DNA of 50,798 bases from Deltaproteobacteria bacterium (GTDB lineage Bacteria; Myxococcota; Myxococcia; Myxococcales; 40CM-4-68-19): contig VBKO01000045.1 of NCBI GenBank assembly GCA_005888115.1, forward strand, positions 1-50,798, written 5' to 3'. The notes under the pieces were generated by a model. The model was not told the origin of the DNA and did no database searches. It saw only the letters and a list, made by a program, of their open reading frames with translations. Positions within the stretch are counted from its first letter, which is position 1, and each line of letters opens with the position of its first letter. Both the position numbers and the translations under genes were made by a program. Shown here piece by piece: positions 8,803-27,616 of the stretch.

Positions 8803-10053
8803 TCAGCGGGGGCGGGCCGTGGGGAGCTTGGGGTCGAGAAGCGGTTCGATGAAGGAGCCGGCACGGCGCAGCGCCGATTCCACTTCCGCGGGTGTTTCGC
8901 CGCGGGCGAAGGCGAAGCCCAGGTAGCTGGCGCCCTCGGGGAGTGGGACCAGCTCCTCGTCGGCGTGCGCGGTGACCACCACGTCGGTGACGCCGGGCAC
9001 GGCCCGTGCCTCGGCAAGGCCGCGCACCTCGCGCAGGACGCCGCCGCGGCGGATAGGCAGCATCAGCACGCCCGACGCCGCGTTCTCCCGGACCAGCACG
9101 GGTGGGCCGCCCAGCGCGTGCAAAAGGAGCAGCTCCTCCAGGGTGACTCCCACGCCGAAACGCAGCGCGCGGCCGCAGAGGCCGCCGATCGATCGCGCCG
9201 CCACTTCGAGGATACGCGGTCCGTCCCCGGTCAGCCGCAGCTCGGCGTGGATGGGCCCGTGCGTGAGCCCTAGCGCTCGCGCCGCCGAAGCCGTCGCGCG
9301 CGCCACCGCTTGCTGCAGCTCCTCGGGATGACGCGACGGGGTGACGTAGAGGGTCTCCTCGAAGTACGGACCGTCCAGCGGGTCCGGCTTGTCGAACAGC
9401 GCCAGGACGGTCAGCTCCCCTCGCGTCAGCAGCCCTTCCACGGCCACTTCGGGGCCGGGGAGGAACTCCTCGACCAGGACGCTCGCGAGCTCAGCGTCGC
9501 GCCGGACGGCCACTTGCGGCGACCGGAGCAGCCGGCCGACGCGATCCAGTGCGGCTTGAAGCTCCGCTGGGCCGTCCGCCCGGATCACGCCGCGGCTTGC
9601 CGACAACACCAGAGGCTTTACCACGCAGGGAAAAGGCACGCCGTCCGGGATCGGGCCGCCCAGCTGCACGACCTGGAAGCGCGGCACAGGCACGCCGGCG
9701 TTGCGCAGTCGTTCCCGGGAGAGGCGCTTGTTCCGCGCCGCCTCGACCGCTTCAGGTGGGTCGTGGAGCAATCCGAGCAGCCGGGCTGCGCGCGCGGCGA
9801 TGACGGCCGTCTGATCGTCGGTGCCGAGCACGGCCACGGGTTTGCGCGGGCGGACGGCCTCGGCGAGGGACCGCGCCGCGCCGTCGGGGTCGGTGAAGTC
9901 CAGCGGGAGCGAGCCCTCCGTCCACTGCTCGGCGAGGACGTGGCACCGGTCCGAGGCCACGAACAGGTCGACGCCCACACGCGCGGCGGCCGCGAGCAGA
10001 TCGTCGCCGCGGTAGCTGCTCTGCGGCAGGAGCACGGCGACGCAAGGGCGCAT
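8803..10053 (-). CDS. ATP-grasp domain protein (carboxylate-amine ligase-like)
   Basis: ATP-grasp enzyme of 416 residues, of the type that joins a carboxylate to an amine or thiol through an acyl phosphate. The N-terminal preATP-grasp domain reads [36 protein letters not shown], followed by [20 protein letters not shown], the Lys of [34 protein letters not shown] and the metal-binding HAELRL...[11 protein letters not shown]. This resembles BL00235/CarB-like ATP-grasp proteins used in peptide or specialised-metabolite pathways. The ATG at 10053 is chosen because the sixteen extra codons upstream are not family-like. Its stop lies nine bases from the end of the convergent radical SAM gene when read through the TGA. 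Whether the two act together is unknown. Confidence 0.85.
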
Positions 10054-20288: not shown

Positions 20289-21665
<1,377 letters not shown>

Positions 21666-21680: not shown

Positions 21681-23249
21681 TCAAGCCGGCCTCGGCTGGA
21701 CGGGCAGCACGATCGAGAATGTCGATCCTCTTCCGAGCTCGCTCTCCACCGCGGTGTCTCCACCGTGGGCGACGACGATCCGGCGCACGTTGGGAAGGCC
21801 CATGCCCACGTGAGCGCCGGTGCGCTTGGTGGACTTGAAGGCGTCGAAGATGCGCGGCAGTCGCTCCTGCGCGATCCCCGGGCCGCGGTCGGTCACCTTG
21901 AGCGTCGCCACGGTGTCCCGCTGCGACACCTCGATCGAGACCTGCACGCCGGGGGGCGAGGCCTCGATGGCGTTGGAGAGCAGGTTCAGCGCGGCGCGCT
22001 CGAGCAGGTAGCGGTCTCCGTTGACCCAAGGCGCCTCGGCAGCGGGCATGACGGTGATGTGCACGCCAGCCTTCTCTGCGTGCGGGACGGCGGTGCGCCC
22101 GATGCTGTGGGCGAACGCATTCAGGTCGAGCGGGAGGAACTGGTCCGGCGATACCTCGCGCGAGAGGTCGGCGAAGTCGGCCACGAACTTCTTCAAGGTG
22201 GCGGTCTCCGCGCGCAGGTTGTCGCGGATGAGCGGGAGGTACGCGGGGTCGTTCGCCTCGGCGAGCGCGGCCGTGGACTGCAGGATGGCGAGCCGGTGCC
22301 CCAGATCGTGCGAGATGCCGGTCGCGATGCGCCCTGCGGTGCGCCACCGTTCCTCGGTCTCCAACGTATCGAGGACGCGCCGGGACTGCGCGGCGCCGAG
22401 GGCCAGCGTGACGAACAGCGCGGCCACCGCAACCGCGGAGAGACCGATCAGCGCGTTGCGCATCGGCGCCAATGCTTCGCGCTTGGGCTCCTCGACCACC
22501 ACCGTCCAGCGCGGGTCCGACAGCCGCGCCCACCCGGCCAGGACGTCTTCGCCGATGGCCCCGTGCAGCTGGGGGGGCGCGGGCTCTCCACGCGCTACCC
22601 TGCTCGCCAGCGGCGACTCGGCGATTGGCTCGCCGGTCAGCACGTTGGCGCGGAGCGCGGGGGCGCCCGCGGCGAGGAGGCGGCCCTCGGCGTCGAAGGC
22701 GAGCGCGAACCCGCTCTCGCCGATGCGGATGCGCTGCACCTGGCGCTGCAGCTCGAGCAGGTCGAGCGTGGCGCACACGGCGGTTCCCGCCGTCGCTCCG
22801 GCGGGGACGCAGACGTCCATCGCCGGGGTCAGGTCCTCGCGGAAGTACAGGGCCGAGGCGACCTCGCGGCCGGCCAGCGCCGCGACGACGTCCGCGGGCG
22901 CCAGGCGCTGAGGGAGCCGGTCCGCCGGGGTGCGCGGAGTGAGCAGCGTCACGTGCCCCAGGCTGGGGGCGTCGAGCGCTACCTGCGCGAGCCGCCGCTC
23001 AGCCTCCGTGATGCCCGTGACCAGCCCGGCGAGGGCGCGCAGCATCTCGCGCTGGTGCGAGAGATAAGCGCCGATGCGCGAGGCCGCCTGCTCCGCGATG
23101 ACCGCGAGCGCCGCCTGGGAGCTCCGCTCGGCGCTGCGCCGCAGGAGGAAGATGGCGGAGAGACCGACCAGAGCGATGAGAATCCCCGAGCTCGCGACCA
23201 GCACGAGGAGCTTCCGCGCCATCTCCTGTCGGCTCGATCGGTCGTTCAC
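21681..23249 (-). CDS. Membrane sensor histidine kinase
   Basis: Sensor kinase of 522 residues. TM1 is LLVLVASSGILIALVGLSAIFLL. A periplasmic domain of about 230 residues follows, with Cache-like features (YFREDLTPAMDVCVPAG, GESGFALAFDAEGRLLAAG, WARLSDPRWTVVVEEPK). TM2 is IGLSAVAVAALFVTLALGA. A HisKA-type domain has phosphoacceptor His in GISHDLGHRLAILQSTA, and the ATPase domain shows NLLSNAIEA (N box), DRGPGIA (G1), FDAFKSTK (F) and GMGLPNVRRIV (G2). I start at the GTG at 23249: it overlaps the stop of the binding-protein gene (GTGA) and has GGGAG eight bases upstream, which beats the in-frame TTG at 23264. Coupling to the SBP gene suggests the SBP presents the ligand to this kinase. Confidence 0.88.
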   Translation of the reverse strand: MNDRSSRQEMARKLLVLVASSGILIALVGLSAIFLLRRSAERSSQAALAVIAEQAASRIGAYLSHQREMLRALAGLVTGITEAERRLAQVALDAPSLGHVTLLTPRTPADRLPQRLAPADVVAALAGREVASALYFREDLTPAMDVCVPAGATAGTAVCATLDLLELQRQVQRIRIGESGFALAFDAEGRLLAAGAPALRANVLTGEPIAESPLASRVARGEPAPPQLHGAIGEDVLAGWARLSDPRWTVVVEEPKREALAPMRNALIGLSAVAVAALFVTLALGAAQSRRVLDTLETEERWRTAGRIATGISHDLGHRLAILQSTAALAEANDPAYLPLIRDNLRAETATLKKFVADFADLSREVSPDQFLPLDLNAFAHSIGRTAVPHAEKAGVHITVMPAAEAPWVNGDRYLLERAALNLLSNAIEASPPGVQVSIEVSQRDTVATLKVTDRGPGIAQERLPRIFDAFKSTKRTGAHVGMGLPNVRRIVVAHGGDTAVESELGRGSTFSIVLPVQPRPA

Positions 23250-24420
23250 TCCGAGATCTCCCAATCCGGCAAAGTCTCCAGATAGCCGTACGGGCCGACC
23301 TGGGGATTCTTGACGCGGCTGTCCACGACGGCCAGGCGCTCGGGGGTGCAGATGAAGGCGACCGGCGGGTCTTCGCGCAACTCTTGCAGGGCGCGTGCCC
23401 AGTCACCGCCTCTCAGCGCGGCGTCGACCTTGGGATTGCTGTAGCCGATTTGATTATAGGGCGAATCGGACGCCCAGACGAGCGCCGCCGAGCTGGCCGG
23501 CCAGACGAGGGGCCGGAGTAACAACAGATCGAAATCCTGACTCTTGGCAAGTCGGAAAGCATCAGCGACAGAAACCAAACGGACGTCGCCCCCGTGCCGT
23601 CCCAGGGCTCGCGCGACGGCCAAGGCGGTGCGCTCCAAGGCGAGATCCTGCCGGAAGACGGTGATCTCCAATGCTCTGGCGGGCAGGACGGGGTTTTTAT
23701 CGCGGCCGACGGAAAAGGCAGGACATTCATTTCCGAAGACGAGCCTGCTGATGCTATCCACCGGAAGCGCCGCGGCGATCGCACTGCGGGTTGCGCGGCT
23801 GAGCCGGTTGAGGCCCATGGCGACGGCGATCGCGTTCGCGCCGTGCGCACGAATGATGCGCAACCGGCTGATGCCTTGGAAGAACTCCAGCTGCTTCGGA
23901 TCGGTCACGATCAAGAGGTCTGCGTCTCCCGCCAGCGTGCGCGCGAATGGATCCCGGGGCGTGGGAAACCCGAGCAAGAGGACCTCATCGATTTTTCCAA
24001 GACCCGGGACCACGCGGCGGAGCAAGAGCCGTTCGGGGTCGAACGAGACTCGATCAAGAGGCCGCGTGTCTGCTCGCGGACCTCGAGCCCGGCCTCTCGG
24101 AGGGACTGCCGGACGTTTTCTGGCGTGATGGCAGATCCGTCGCTGAACTTCGCCCCATTGCGAATCTCCAACAGCACGCGCGACGGGCTCGAAAATTGGA
24201 ACCGGCTGGCGAGTCCGGAGATCGCCGAGCCGTCAGATGCAGTGCGCAGTAGCGGCTCGAATACCCATTCCTTCGCATACCCGCTGGCGCTGGGTTGGGC
24301 GCCCGGCGTGAGCGCCGTGAGCGGACCGACCAGCGCGATGCGCAGCCGGAATTCTCCCTTCGTCTGCGAGGGCCTGCAGGCGAGAGCTGCGGTGAGGAAC
24401 GCGAGCAGGAGGCGGCGCAC
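23246..24420 (-). CDS. Peptide-binding lipoprotein (SBP family 5), frameshifted near 24024-24068
   Basis: Extracytoplasmic solute-binding protein of the oligopeptide/dipeptide (SBP_bac_5) type. The first frame (from ATG 24420) has a signal peptide with lipobox-like ALAC (Cys15), then ALVGPLTALTPG, YAKEWVFEPLLR, and VLLEIRNGAKFSDGSAITPENVRQSLREAG, which is the family's hallmark region. After GLEVREQTR the protein-like sequence moves to the adjacent frame: PLDRVSFDPERLLLRRVVPGLGKIDEVLLLGF and on to YGYLETLPDWEISE at 23246. One missing base restores 391 residues, shorter than the usual 500 or so. No ABC permease or ATPase gene is nearby; the gene lies between a 26-codon peptide gene and a histidine kinase. 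A peptide-sensing role is inferred. Confidence 0.78.
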
Positions 24421-24455
24421 GAGGCCCCCAAGCCTCGTGGCGCCATCGCATTACG

Positions 24456-24536
24456 TCAAGAAATGTTGGGCACGAGAATCATGATGCAGGGCGCTGCCTT
24501 GCGGGTGCTCTTCCGGGCGCTGCGCTTGATCTTCAT
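24456..24536 (-). CDS. Candidate RiPP precursor peptide, 26 residues
   Basis: A 27-codon ORF directly behind the radical SAM/SPASM gene (20 bases after its stop), far too short for routine gene callers. The N-terminal half MKIKRSARKSTRKAA is strongly basic; the C-terminal part PCIMILVPNIS is hydrophobic with a single Cys at residue 17. GGAG lies six bases before the ATG. Such a leader/core layout next to a SPASM maturase is what a minimal ribosomally made, modified peptide looks like, and it recalls the short 'geopeptide'-type precursors described near SPASM enzymes in Geobacter; I cannot verify family membership. The 35-base gap to the SBP gene fits a single operon. The modified residue is unknown; Cys17 or a neighbouring aliphatic residue is a guess. 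Confidence 0.72.
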   Translation of the reverse strand: MKIKRSARKSTRKAAPCIMILVPNIS

Positions 24537-24556: not shown

Positions 24557-25839
24557 CTATGCCGCGGCGGTTGCGGGGGACGACACTTCGGTGACGGGGA
24601 ATTCCGCGAGGTAACGGCGCACGATCGTCTCGCGGAAGCTCAGCTCGTACTTCTCCTTCTTGCAGGCGACTTCATCCATGCGGCCGGTCTTGAGGTACTT
24701 GCCGCCCAGGCATCCGCCGACACAGACAGGGAGGTATGGGCAGTCTCCGCACTTCTCCCAGGGCCGCAGGGCCACGAGCGGCGCGACCTTCTCCGGGCCC
24801 GTTCCCGCGACGTGCGCCACTTCCAACCCGGGGATGCCCGCCACTACCGGGCACTTGTAGACGCGGCCCTCGGGGTCGATGGTGTAGTTGTTCTTCCAGT
24901 GCAGCTCGCATTGTTGAGCTGCACCAGGACCTGCGACTCCTGTTTGTCGCCGCAGCCCGTGCAGCTCGCCTTCGCCTTCTGCGTGTCGACGATGGGCTTG
25001 AAGTTCACGCCCGCGAGCTTTCCGCGCAGGCCCGCCGCCTCGATCCGGTCGAGCAGCCGTTCGAAGCTCTCCCTTTGCTCGGGCAGGAAGTTCCCGTTGA
25101 CGAGGATCCGGACGAGGTCGGCGCAGGCGACCACGTTGTCGAAGATCTGGTCGAAGCTCCCGCGGCCGTTCCGGTAGACGCGCATCTGGTCGTGCGTCTC
25201 GCGATCGCCGTCGAGCGTCACCATGAACAGGCCGTCGCCGAAGCGGCGCATCTCGAGGGCGAAGTCGGGGGTGAGCCCGATCCCATTGGTGGTGCACGAC
25301 CAGCGGAACCGGCCGCCGCGCGCCTCCATCGAGGCGCTCAGCACCTCCGCGGTGCGAAGCATGAAGTCCTTGCGGGTGAGCGGCTCGCCTCCGAAGTAGT
25401 GTACGTGCAGGACGCGCAGCGCGCGCTCGTCCAGCGTGCGCAGGATCCACTCGAGGGTGGAGTCCTCCGTGCGCTCGTGCATCTTGGTGAAGGCCGGGTG
25501 GTCCTTCTGGAAGCAGTAGGTGCAAGCGAGGTTGCAGGCGAGCGTGGGCATCAGGGTGACCTGCATGGTCCCCGGTTCGCCCTCGGCGGCCCGGTCGAGG
25601 AATGCGCGCAGATTCGCGTCATCCTCCGCGCGCGAGCGCACCAGGAAGCCTTCCTCGAGCAGCACCTGCTGCGTCTCGCGCTCGGCGGCGTCCGCCGGGC
25701 GGCGCCCGCGCGTCCAGCGCTCCAGCGCGTCGGACGTGGCGTCGTCGATGCCGACGTAATGATCGGCGAGGACGCTGTAGAGCACGTGCTCGCCGGGTCG
25801 GATGTCGCGGTAAGAGACGACGAACCGTGACAGCTGCAT
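24557..25839 (-). CDS. Radical SAM/SPASM peptide maturase with PqqD-like N-terminus, frameshifted near 24915-24925
   Basis: Probable RiPP-modifying enzyme. Residues 1-85 look like a PqqD-type peptide-recognition element (MQLSRFVVSYRDIRPGEHVLYSVLADHYVGID...). The radical SAM motif is C102-x3-C106-x2-C109 (TLACNLACTYCFQKDHPAF), followed by VHYFGGEPLTRKDFML, CTTNGIGLTP and MVTLDGDRETHDQMRVYRNGRGSFDQI. The C-terminal SPASM/twitch region is Cys-rich: SCTGCGDK, CELHWKNNYTIDPEGRVYKCPVVAG and CGDCPYLPVCVGGCLGG, enough for auxiliary clusters. Its second half lies in an adjacent frame; one missing base around VQLNN/CELHW restores 427 residues. The ATG at 25839 has no Shine-Dalgarno and lies only about four bases from the start predicted by the sigma-54 promoter. 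It is the first gene of the maturase-peptide-SBP-kinase operon. Confidence 0.85.
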
Positions 25840-25854
25840 GGACGACGCAGCTAC

Positions 25855-25869
25855 GCAACGCGAGTGCCA
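25855..25869 (-). promoter_or_regulatory. Sigma-54 promoter (-24/-12) of the maturase operon
   Basis: On the minus strand TGGCAC (25869-25864), five bases, then TTGC (25858-25855) match the sigma-54 consensus TGGCAC-N5-TTGC exactly. The predicted start point is near 25843, only about four bases before the ATG at 25839, so the transcript would be almost leaderless. I inspected the other TGGCAC occurrences I noticed in the window and none has a correctly spaced TTGC. Confidence 0.75.
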
Positions 25870-25925: not shown

Positions 25926-25979
25926 CAGGAATTCCAATTCGAATAGCCAGGAATCGAGCCCCAGGCCAGGATTCGAGCC
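25926..25979. promoter_or_regulatory. Repeated operator-like sequence, candidate enhancer (UAS) for the sigma-54 regulator
   Basis: GCCAGGAATCGAGCC (25946-25960) and GCCAGGATTCGAGCC (25965-25979) are direct repeats differing at one base, with a 19-base period. A third related copy, CAGGAATTC, begins at 25926. The palindromes GGAATTCC (25928-25935) and ATTCGAAT (25937-25944) lie inside the same stretch. The block is about 80-135 bases upstream of the predicted sigma-54 start, the usual distance for enhancer sites. Binding by the 20289-21665 regulator is inference. Confidence 0.55.
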
Positions 25980-26154
25980 GCGCAGGGATGGTCGATCGGG
26001 CCCGGAGTCTGGCCGATGGCCGCTTCCATGCCCGCTTCCGCGCACGATAAAAATGTTTTAAAACCAATTACTTATCATTGGTGGCCGAGATCCGGGCCAG
26101 TGGGGCCAATCGGCTGGCCTGGGCGATGGCGCGCGACTTGCTCAAGGGAGCCGC

Positions 26155-26385
26155 GTGACCGATCAAAAGCTCATCGGCGTGTGCCACCTCCGATCCGAAG
26201 GCCGCAGGATCCCCGTCCTGCTCTTCCGCAACGGCCCCACCTCGGTCGCGGCGCGTTGCCTCATCCATCCCGGTGACACGCCCATCCTCGACGGGCCCTC
26301 GCCGGAAGCGGTGCTCGCGCTCCTGGCTGGCGTGATCGACGATCTGCTGCTCGCACGCGGGGCGATCACCGTTCCGCCGATTTAG
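26155..26385 (+). CDS. Hypothetical protein, 76 residues
   Basis: Small soluble protein I do not recognise. It reads MTDQKLIGVCHLRSEGRRIP, then a beta-rich stretch (VLLFRNGPTSVAARCLIHPGDTPILDG), then a helix (SPEAVLALLAGVIDDLLLARG). The GTG start at 26155 is preceded by AAGGGAG six to seven bases upstream, a good ribosome binding site. It is divergent from the maturase operon and shares its upstream region, so it might belong to the same regulon. Its end lies 13 bases from the convergent TVP38-like gene. Confidence 0.6.
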   Translation: MTDQKLIGVCHLRSEGRRIPVLLFRNGPTSVAARCLIHPGDTPILDGPSPEAVLALLAGVIDDLLLARGAITVPPI

Positions 26386-27084: not shown

Positions 27085-27616
27085 TCATGTCCCCTTCGGT
27101 CGGCGCCGCCCCAGCGTCTTGCGCGGTCCCGCAGGCGCGGGCTCGGACGAGGAGGGTGAGGCTGGAGTCGAGGTCGACGTCGACGAGGACGACGAGGTCG
27201 GGGTGGAGGGAGAGGGAGAGGTGGGGGTCGAGGTCGAGGGGGAGGCCGCGCTCGGGGGGAGCGCCGTGCTCGCCGCCACTCCTTTGAAGAGTGGATCGTC
27301 GGCCAGCTGTCGGTGCGCTTCGGCTCGCGCGTCGGCGCGGAGCGCCTGGTACTCCCGGCGCTCCGCCTCGTCCATCTGGTCCAGCGCGAAGTTGAGCTTC
27401 GCGCGGGCCTTCACCACGCGCGTCCGGGCGTCATCGGTGAGCCGACGGCCCTCCTCGAGCAGATCGGCGGCGGCAACCGGTTTGAGCCCGGGATCTCGCG
27501 CGCGCTGCAGCTTGTCCTCGCCCTCGCGCTGCTGGGCTTCCGCGGCCGCGCTGCGCGCGCGCCTGCGCCTCGAGGTGCTGCATCTTCAGGATCAGCTCGT
27601 CCACCTCGTCCGGCAT
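27085..27616 (-). CDS. Coiled-coil hypothetical protein with Ser/Thr/Pro repeat tail, apparent frameshift near 27548-27560
   Basis: The start MPDEVDELILKMQHLEAQARA (ATG 27616) is a helical, charged segment. The next frame continues AEAQQREGEDKLQRARDPGLKPVAAADLLEEGRRL and then VVKARAKLNFALDQMDEAERREYQALRADARAEAHRQL, a good coiled coil, so one extra base (or two missing) within the GC-dinucleotide-rich stretch around 27550 separates two halves of one protein of about 176 residues. The C-terminal third is low-complexity STSTPTSPSPSTP-type sequence ending in a basic KTLGRRRPKGT. I do not know its function. It lies six bases upstream of the TVP38-like gene on the same strand. Confidence 0.55.
27148..27247. 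repeat. Simple purine-rich hexamer-like repeat (GTCGAG/GACGAG units)
   Basis: An imperfect run of GTCGAG, GACGAG, GGAGAG and related units, purine-rich on the plus strand. On the minus strand it encodes the Ser/Thr/Pro tail of the coiled-coil protein. A shorter run of the same kind lies in the NFACT gene near 30853-30890, also encoding an STSTST stretch. Such tracts are prone to length change. Confidence 0.6.

Follow-up and report, generated by a model that had tools for sequence, protein, structure and literature searches.

Gene content of the locus

The window (the whole 50.8-kb stretch of DNA analysed) contains a group of genes arranged around a radical SAM/SPASM maturase, with two divergent promoters and a set of palindromes. 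The features are as follows, where SBP stands for the solute-binding protein:

20289–21665, plus strand: NtrC-type response regulator with Pfam receiver, sigma-54 interaction and Fis-type HTH domains
21681–23264, minus strand: membrane histidine kinase with a dCache-like sensor (HATPase_c 6.5e-25; dCache_1 1.3e-9, below its cut-off)
23246–24429, minus strand: family-5 solute-binding lipoprotein (SBP), split in frame (24040–24429 and 23255–24067)
24456–24536, minus strand: RiPP precursor of 26 aa (strongly supported), a 17-residue leader block ending in Cys17 plus a 9-residue tail
24557–25839, minus strand: radical SAM/SPASM maturase, in two frames in this assembly (24847–25839 and 24557–24913)
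25854–25869, minus strand: sigma-54 promoter TGGCACTCGCGTTGCG, 30 bp upstream of the maturase start
25945–26119, no strand assigned: operator-like palindromes GGCYMG-N4-CKRGCC between both promoters (best copies at 25945–25960, 25964–25979, 25999–26014 and 26104–26119)
26127–26142, plus strand: divergent sigma-54 promoter TGGCGCGCGACTTGCT, ahead of the 72-aa-type gene
26155–26385, plus strand: conserved protein without known family, 76 aa here and about 72 aa in relatives, with a GTG start

The minus strand of 24456–24536 translates to MKIKRSARKSTRKAAPCIMILVPNIS*. Its ATG lies at 24534–24536 and the stop codon of the maturase at 24557–24559, so the gap is 20 bases, and the start is preceded by a Shine-Dalgarno-like context (ATGGAGCGAACC-ATG; GGAG at 6 nt spacing). 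The preliminary description, which had reported this distance and a well-spaced GGAG, is confirmed by the sequence on both points. ATG-initiated ORFs of 20–45 codons with a Shine-Dalgarno-like motif number merely 8 in the whole 50.8 kb, counting both strands, so that finding one of them 3' of the maturase is uncommon, which by itself is no proof. The precursors fit none of the NCBIfam models, and an Rfam scan of the entire window gave no family. Precursors of this size are too short for ordinary gene finders.

Conservation of the precursor

The maturase is carried by 13 genomes in the phylum sample. The relatives are metagenome assemblies of Deltaproteobacteria/Myxococcales, together with one Byssovorax and one Acidobacteria bin; a single-sequence scan of genome contigs gave no matches, whereas an alignment query did find them. 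Wherever the contig continues, a peptide ORF follows about 15–110 bases 3' of the maturase (all 12 readable loci, among them the window). Among these 12 loci, the peptide of G005 sits on a second contig and the maturase of G007 is broken in frame.

The block from the start codon to the cysteine is exactly 17 codons in all 12 loci, with one additional start codon ahead of it in L020. It follows the pattern M-x-[IVL]-x-x-S-x-R-x-[ST]-x-R-x4-C, in which S6, R8, R12 and C17 are invariant and M1 and S10 nearly invariant (alignment of 11 sequences). The tails are variable and 5–10 residues long (IMILVPNIS, PNMIG, GMIVISPPVA, MSLVY, PMMVDNNP, TIMIDNMP, AHFGELY, GAGHS, SIVAE and SMVVG were seen), and the precursors have 22–27 residues in total with a single Cys in each. 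The family signature is therefore not the PCxMxLVPN-like C-terminal tail that had been proposed beforehand, since the tail varies and the leader with Cys17 is conserved instead.

The substitutions in the leader also agree with a coding sequence. The check for synonymous excess suggested in the preliminary description gave a pN/pS (Nei-Gojobori) of 0.74 in frame, compared with 1.07 and 1.30 when the two alternative frames are read, and in the closest pair (L018/L022) the change is mostly synonymous (pS 0.51, pN 0.06). When a degenerate leader pattern was searched in 19 genomes, matches were confined to these loci, while the reversed-pattern control gave 0 matches. L041–L046 are distant SPASM maturases (23–29 percent identity), and the leader pattern is absent from L041, L043 and L044.

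Lack of conservation beside homologous maturases had been named as the observation that would speak against the peptide; we found the ORF conserved in 11 relatives, and because it is conserved in the same place we consider it real. The earlier assignment as a RiPP precursor gains support from a tiny ORF 3' of a SPASM maturase in every readable locus with a fixed leader length, and the 24456–24536 ORF is almost certainly such a precursor. As to the locus as a whole, the preliminary description was right about the precursor ORF beside the maturase and missed the frame break of the maturase, the larger module and its regulation.

Two relatives lie further out. L035, from the Byssovorax bin, has an ORF of 43 aa (MLTTPETNDTPRAANTDKPRIKTSGKPPGREALPWYTCAYMVF, about 9657–9788, plus strand) some 460 bp past the maturase, with a GGAGG-ATG start context; its product contains the stretch IKTS and a single Cys close to the C-terminus. 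This single example may be a distant, longer precursor; beside its maturase there are no SBP, kinase or regulator genes and no sigma-54 promoter. In L036 (7–1191, plus strand), a maturase homologue of the Acidobacteria bin with 52 percent identity lies at a contig edge, and the contig shows no precursor.

Radical SAM/SPASM maturase

The window maturase matches NCBIfam and Pfam radical SAM models and carries the motif CNLACTYC (CxxxCxxC). This motif and the SPASM cysteine pattern are both present in 11 full-length homologues, and in the window the copy is split over two frames. Apparent frame breaks occur in the window at about 17.7 kb (AsmA-like gene), 24.05 kb (SBP) and 24.9 kb (maturase). 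They are likely assembly indels, because most relatives are intact, including most of the maturases. The AsmA-like gene extends over 15.4–17.9 kb, so its apparent frame change is near the end.

Among named models, the best is TIGR04280 (geopeptide radical SAM maturase), which matches over the whole length. Compared by the maturase only, full-length relatives reach 195–262 bits against a curated cut-off of 400, and membership was therefore rejected; no genome of the phylum sample scanned with TIGR04280 reaches the cut-off. A search of plasmids returned distant SPASM proteins at most.

Among solved structures, the top profile match is CteB (2.3e-21). An AlphaFold model of the L018 homologue, of moderate confidence (mean pLDDT 74), aligns nearly over its full length with CteB first and then with SuiB. 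Both CteB and SuiB carry N-terminal leader-binding domains, and the first ~95 residues of the maturase probably form such a domain. As far as the fold match to CteB alone can tell, a thioether crosslink at the Cys would be favoured. Assignment to the SCIFF, ranthipeptide or sactipeptide classes was rejected, with one Cys per precursor and with TIGR03974 and NF047865 below cut-off.

Linked binding protein, kinase and regulator

The module has the order maturase, peptide, SBP lipoprotein, dCache histidine kinase and convergent NtrC-type regulator. In relatives the SBP is intact, with about 415–449 aa and a lipobox-like Cys. The pieces in the window score below the cut-off of Pfam PF00496 (SBP_bac_5), and the fold matches are clear: a model of the L016 homologue (pLDDT 88) has the oligopeptide/nickel-binding fold and matches CtaP, MppA, AppA and NikA. 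The SBP profile also matches OppA, DppA, PrgZ, NikA and the methanobactin binder MbnE. There is no permease next to the SBP in the module, and no exporter or leader peptidase among the module genes. The regulator contains a sigma-54 activator domain (PF00158, 7e-70) and is oriented convergently to the kinase gene wherever the contig extends that far.

As far as the contigs extend, the maturase is accompanied by the SBP, the kinase and the regulator. Outer neighbours are conserved as well in the family of the window, while a second family (L025, L026 and L027) keeps the same module with different flanks, and we therefore regard the module as a unit. Four Anaeromyxobacter-like genomes (L066, L067, L068 and L069) have the SBP and kinase as a pair but no maturase or peptide, and no regulator beside the pair; two of these genomes are complete (5,029,329 and 5,013,479 bases). 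In L066 the neighbours of the pair are a TPR gene and a second regulator, both shared with the complete loci of that family, suggesting that the rest of the module was lost; in all four genomes the pair has the look of a receptor that was retained after such a loss.

Divergent protein of about 72 aa

A gene for a protein of about 72 aa follows the divergent promoter in 13 of 13 loci, and the 13 sequences align over their length. In a phylum search of 193 genomes, the protein occurs once per maturase genome, beside the maturase, and the sole extra match is a contig-edge fragment in G009, a genome that is 74 percent complete. Pfam, NCBIfam and PDB profiles gave nothing credible for it. The protein is an obligate, undescribed partner of the maturase; it may be HicB-like, with strands followed by a helix. 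In L023 a second histidine-kinase-like ORF lies beyond this gene. The window also has an ORF at 27085–27417 (minus strand) that contains an extended low-complexity stretch of Ser, Thr and Pro.

Sigma-54 promoters and operator-like palindromes

In each of the 13 loci the maturase start is preceded at 28–31 bp by a near-consensus sigma-54 promoter (TGGCAY-N5-TTGC). The divergent one is found at a strict threshold in the window and in 10 of 12 relatives, and is weaker in the other two. The 12 relative loci contain 24 strong sigma-54-like sites, and 22 of them are these two promoters. The palindromes between them are often paired, 19–21 bp apart, and at a stricter threshold there are 2–5 per locus in 12 of 13 loci, compared with about 0.1 expected from shuffles. 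In the window's genome a tandem palindrome pair exists only at this locus. Searches for palindromes plus promoter in 17 genomes returned this promoter region, with other matches at about the control rate; further genomic tandem palindromes (L080 and L081) were dismissed as targets, having no convincing sigma-54 promoter.

The locus combines a sigma-54 activator domain with -24/-12 promoters that have upstream sites, and an NtrC-type regulator within the unit fits the sigma-54 promoters in front of it. Control of the operon by sigma-54 and the linked regulator is very probable. The regulator would bind the palindromes directly. In L027, three tandem operator-like palindromes lie upstream of the regulator gene itself (G055:C231:15468-15524), hinting at autoregulation there.

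Comparison with known systems

The enzyme class is known. CteB/SCIFF and the PapB ranthipeptide system have thioether SPASM maturases; CteB gives the best fold and profile match and shares the radical SAM plus SPASM layout. SCIFF precursors are longer and contain six Cys, whereas the peptides here have 22–27 residues with one Cys, and the scores stay below the family cut-offs.

In its layout the module resembles Gram-positive circuits of the agr/ComX type, in which precursor, modifying enzyme, kinase and regulator form one unit and a conserved leader is joined to a variable mature part. Here, however, the modifying enzyme is unrelated, an SBP receptor precedes the kinase and the output is through sigma-54. 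A periplasmic binding protein that recognises a small signal together with its kinase is also known from LuxP-LuxQ, although LuxP belongs to a different SBP family. Streptococcal RaS-RiPPs under Rgg/SHP quorum sensing likewise couple the operon of a radical SAM peptide with signalling (PMC13361665), there with a cytoplasmic Rgg and a separate SHP peptide, and here with an SBP, a kinase, an NtrC-type regulator and sigma-54 promoters. As far as gene order and sequence can indicate, the architecture would fit a peptide quorum-sensing circuit.

In the open-access literature, we came across neither this precursor family nor the 72-aa family, nor a SPASM RiPP with a dedicated SBP-kinase-NtrC unit, and there were no papers on geopeptide/TIGR04280 or on NtrC-linked radical SAM precursors. 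The precursor family and the wiring appear new, and the unit as a whole seems to represent a novel type of signalling by modified peptides.

Proposed circuit and alternative explanations

Induction of the operon by its own SBP-kinase-regulator pathway is most likely, and the inducer is plausibly the mature peptide itself. In this circuit, the basic leader would be bound by the maturase through an N-terminal RRE-like domain, and the maturase would crosslink the Cys with the short tail, a thioether being the most likely bond. After trimming, the product would leave the cytoplasm by an export route absent from the module and be bound by the lipoprotein, and the loaded lipoprotein would activate the kinase through the Cache domain. 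The regulator would bind the palindromes and fire both sigma-54 promoters, thereby raising the output of precursor, maturase, receptor and kinase, which would amount to an autoinducing signal in a Gram-negative lineage. The identity of the ligand, the crosslink chemistry and the export step are all put forward here as predictions.

Self-induction is favoured by the linkage of the genes, the promoter type, the permease-less SBP, the variable tail on a fixed leader, the divergence of the SBP and its correlation with the tail. The SBP is the most divergent part of the module (mean distance 0.59 versus 0.38 for the maturase core). After correction for the maturase, tail and SBP distances correlate with a partial r of 0.33 (permutation p 0.014, 12 taxa; phylogeny only partly removed), which is weak and, with 12 taxa, only suggestive. 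Against self-induction, the unit has no exporter or peptidase, receptor pairs occur without the peptide, no wider regulon was seen, and the Byssovorax locus has a maturase and a possible precursor with no sensor genes.

The main rival is that an outside cue, such as a metal chelate or a peptide that is foreign or derived from the cell wall, is sensed by the SBP, kinase and regulator and switches on a RiPP that is not its own inducer. The RiPP would serve, for example, as an antimicrobial or metal-binding compound, and the 72-aa protein would have an immunity or accessory role. The closest fold matches of the SBP (CtaP, MppA, AppA and NikA), the four genomes with SBP-kinase pairs alone, the absence of a wider regulon from the searches and the co-regulated, obligate 72-aa gene all agree with it, but the RiPP operon itself includes the SBP and kinase genes, and tail and SBP are both variable and weakly correlated. 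We consider it a real possibility, though less likely than not. A secreted metal- or nutrient-binding RiPP could also be recaptured by the SBP, with the kinase reporting the loaded form. The profile matches to MbnE and NikA and the invariant Cys point this way, and MbnE is itself a periplasmic SBP with a RiPP ligand, Cu-loaded methanobactin (PMC7558416). However, MbnE is part of an uptake route and methanobactin is made by other enzymes. A scan of the neighbouring genes showed no MbnB or MbnC, by which a methanobactin-type system was rejected, and the module has neither permease nor TonB-type receptor; a single Cys with a variable tail also provides no fixed metal-binding motif. This makes an uptake ligand improbable. 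A chance open frame without a product would accord with the shortness of the ORF, its unconserved tail and the broken maturase and SBP frames of the window's assembly. It is at odds with the 17-codon block with its Cys in 12 loci, the mostly synonymous change in the closest pair, the Shine-Dalgarno-like motif and a leader pattern unique in 19 genomes, and is so improbable that it can be taken as already refuted for practical purposes.

On balance, the best reading is that the ORF encodes a precursor for a small radical-SAM RiPP of a new family within a self-regulated six-gene module, and we give even weight for and against the product being its own signal. The extended form of the self-induction model is more tentative and falls a little short of even: the modified mini-peptide would be a Gram-negative pheromone, acting via the SBP lipoprotein and the Cache kinase on the divergent sigma-54 promoters, the 72-aa protein, induced along with it, would act as an effector or control element, and there would be receptor-only listeners among Anaeromyxobacter. 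Since no other target promoters stood out, the targets of such a signal would chiefly be its own operon and the 72-aa gene. Here a SPASM RiPP comes with its own SBP-kinase-NtrC pathway and with promoters of the fitting type, and this makes the purpose of orphan mini-RiPPs directly testable.
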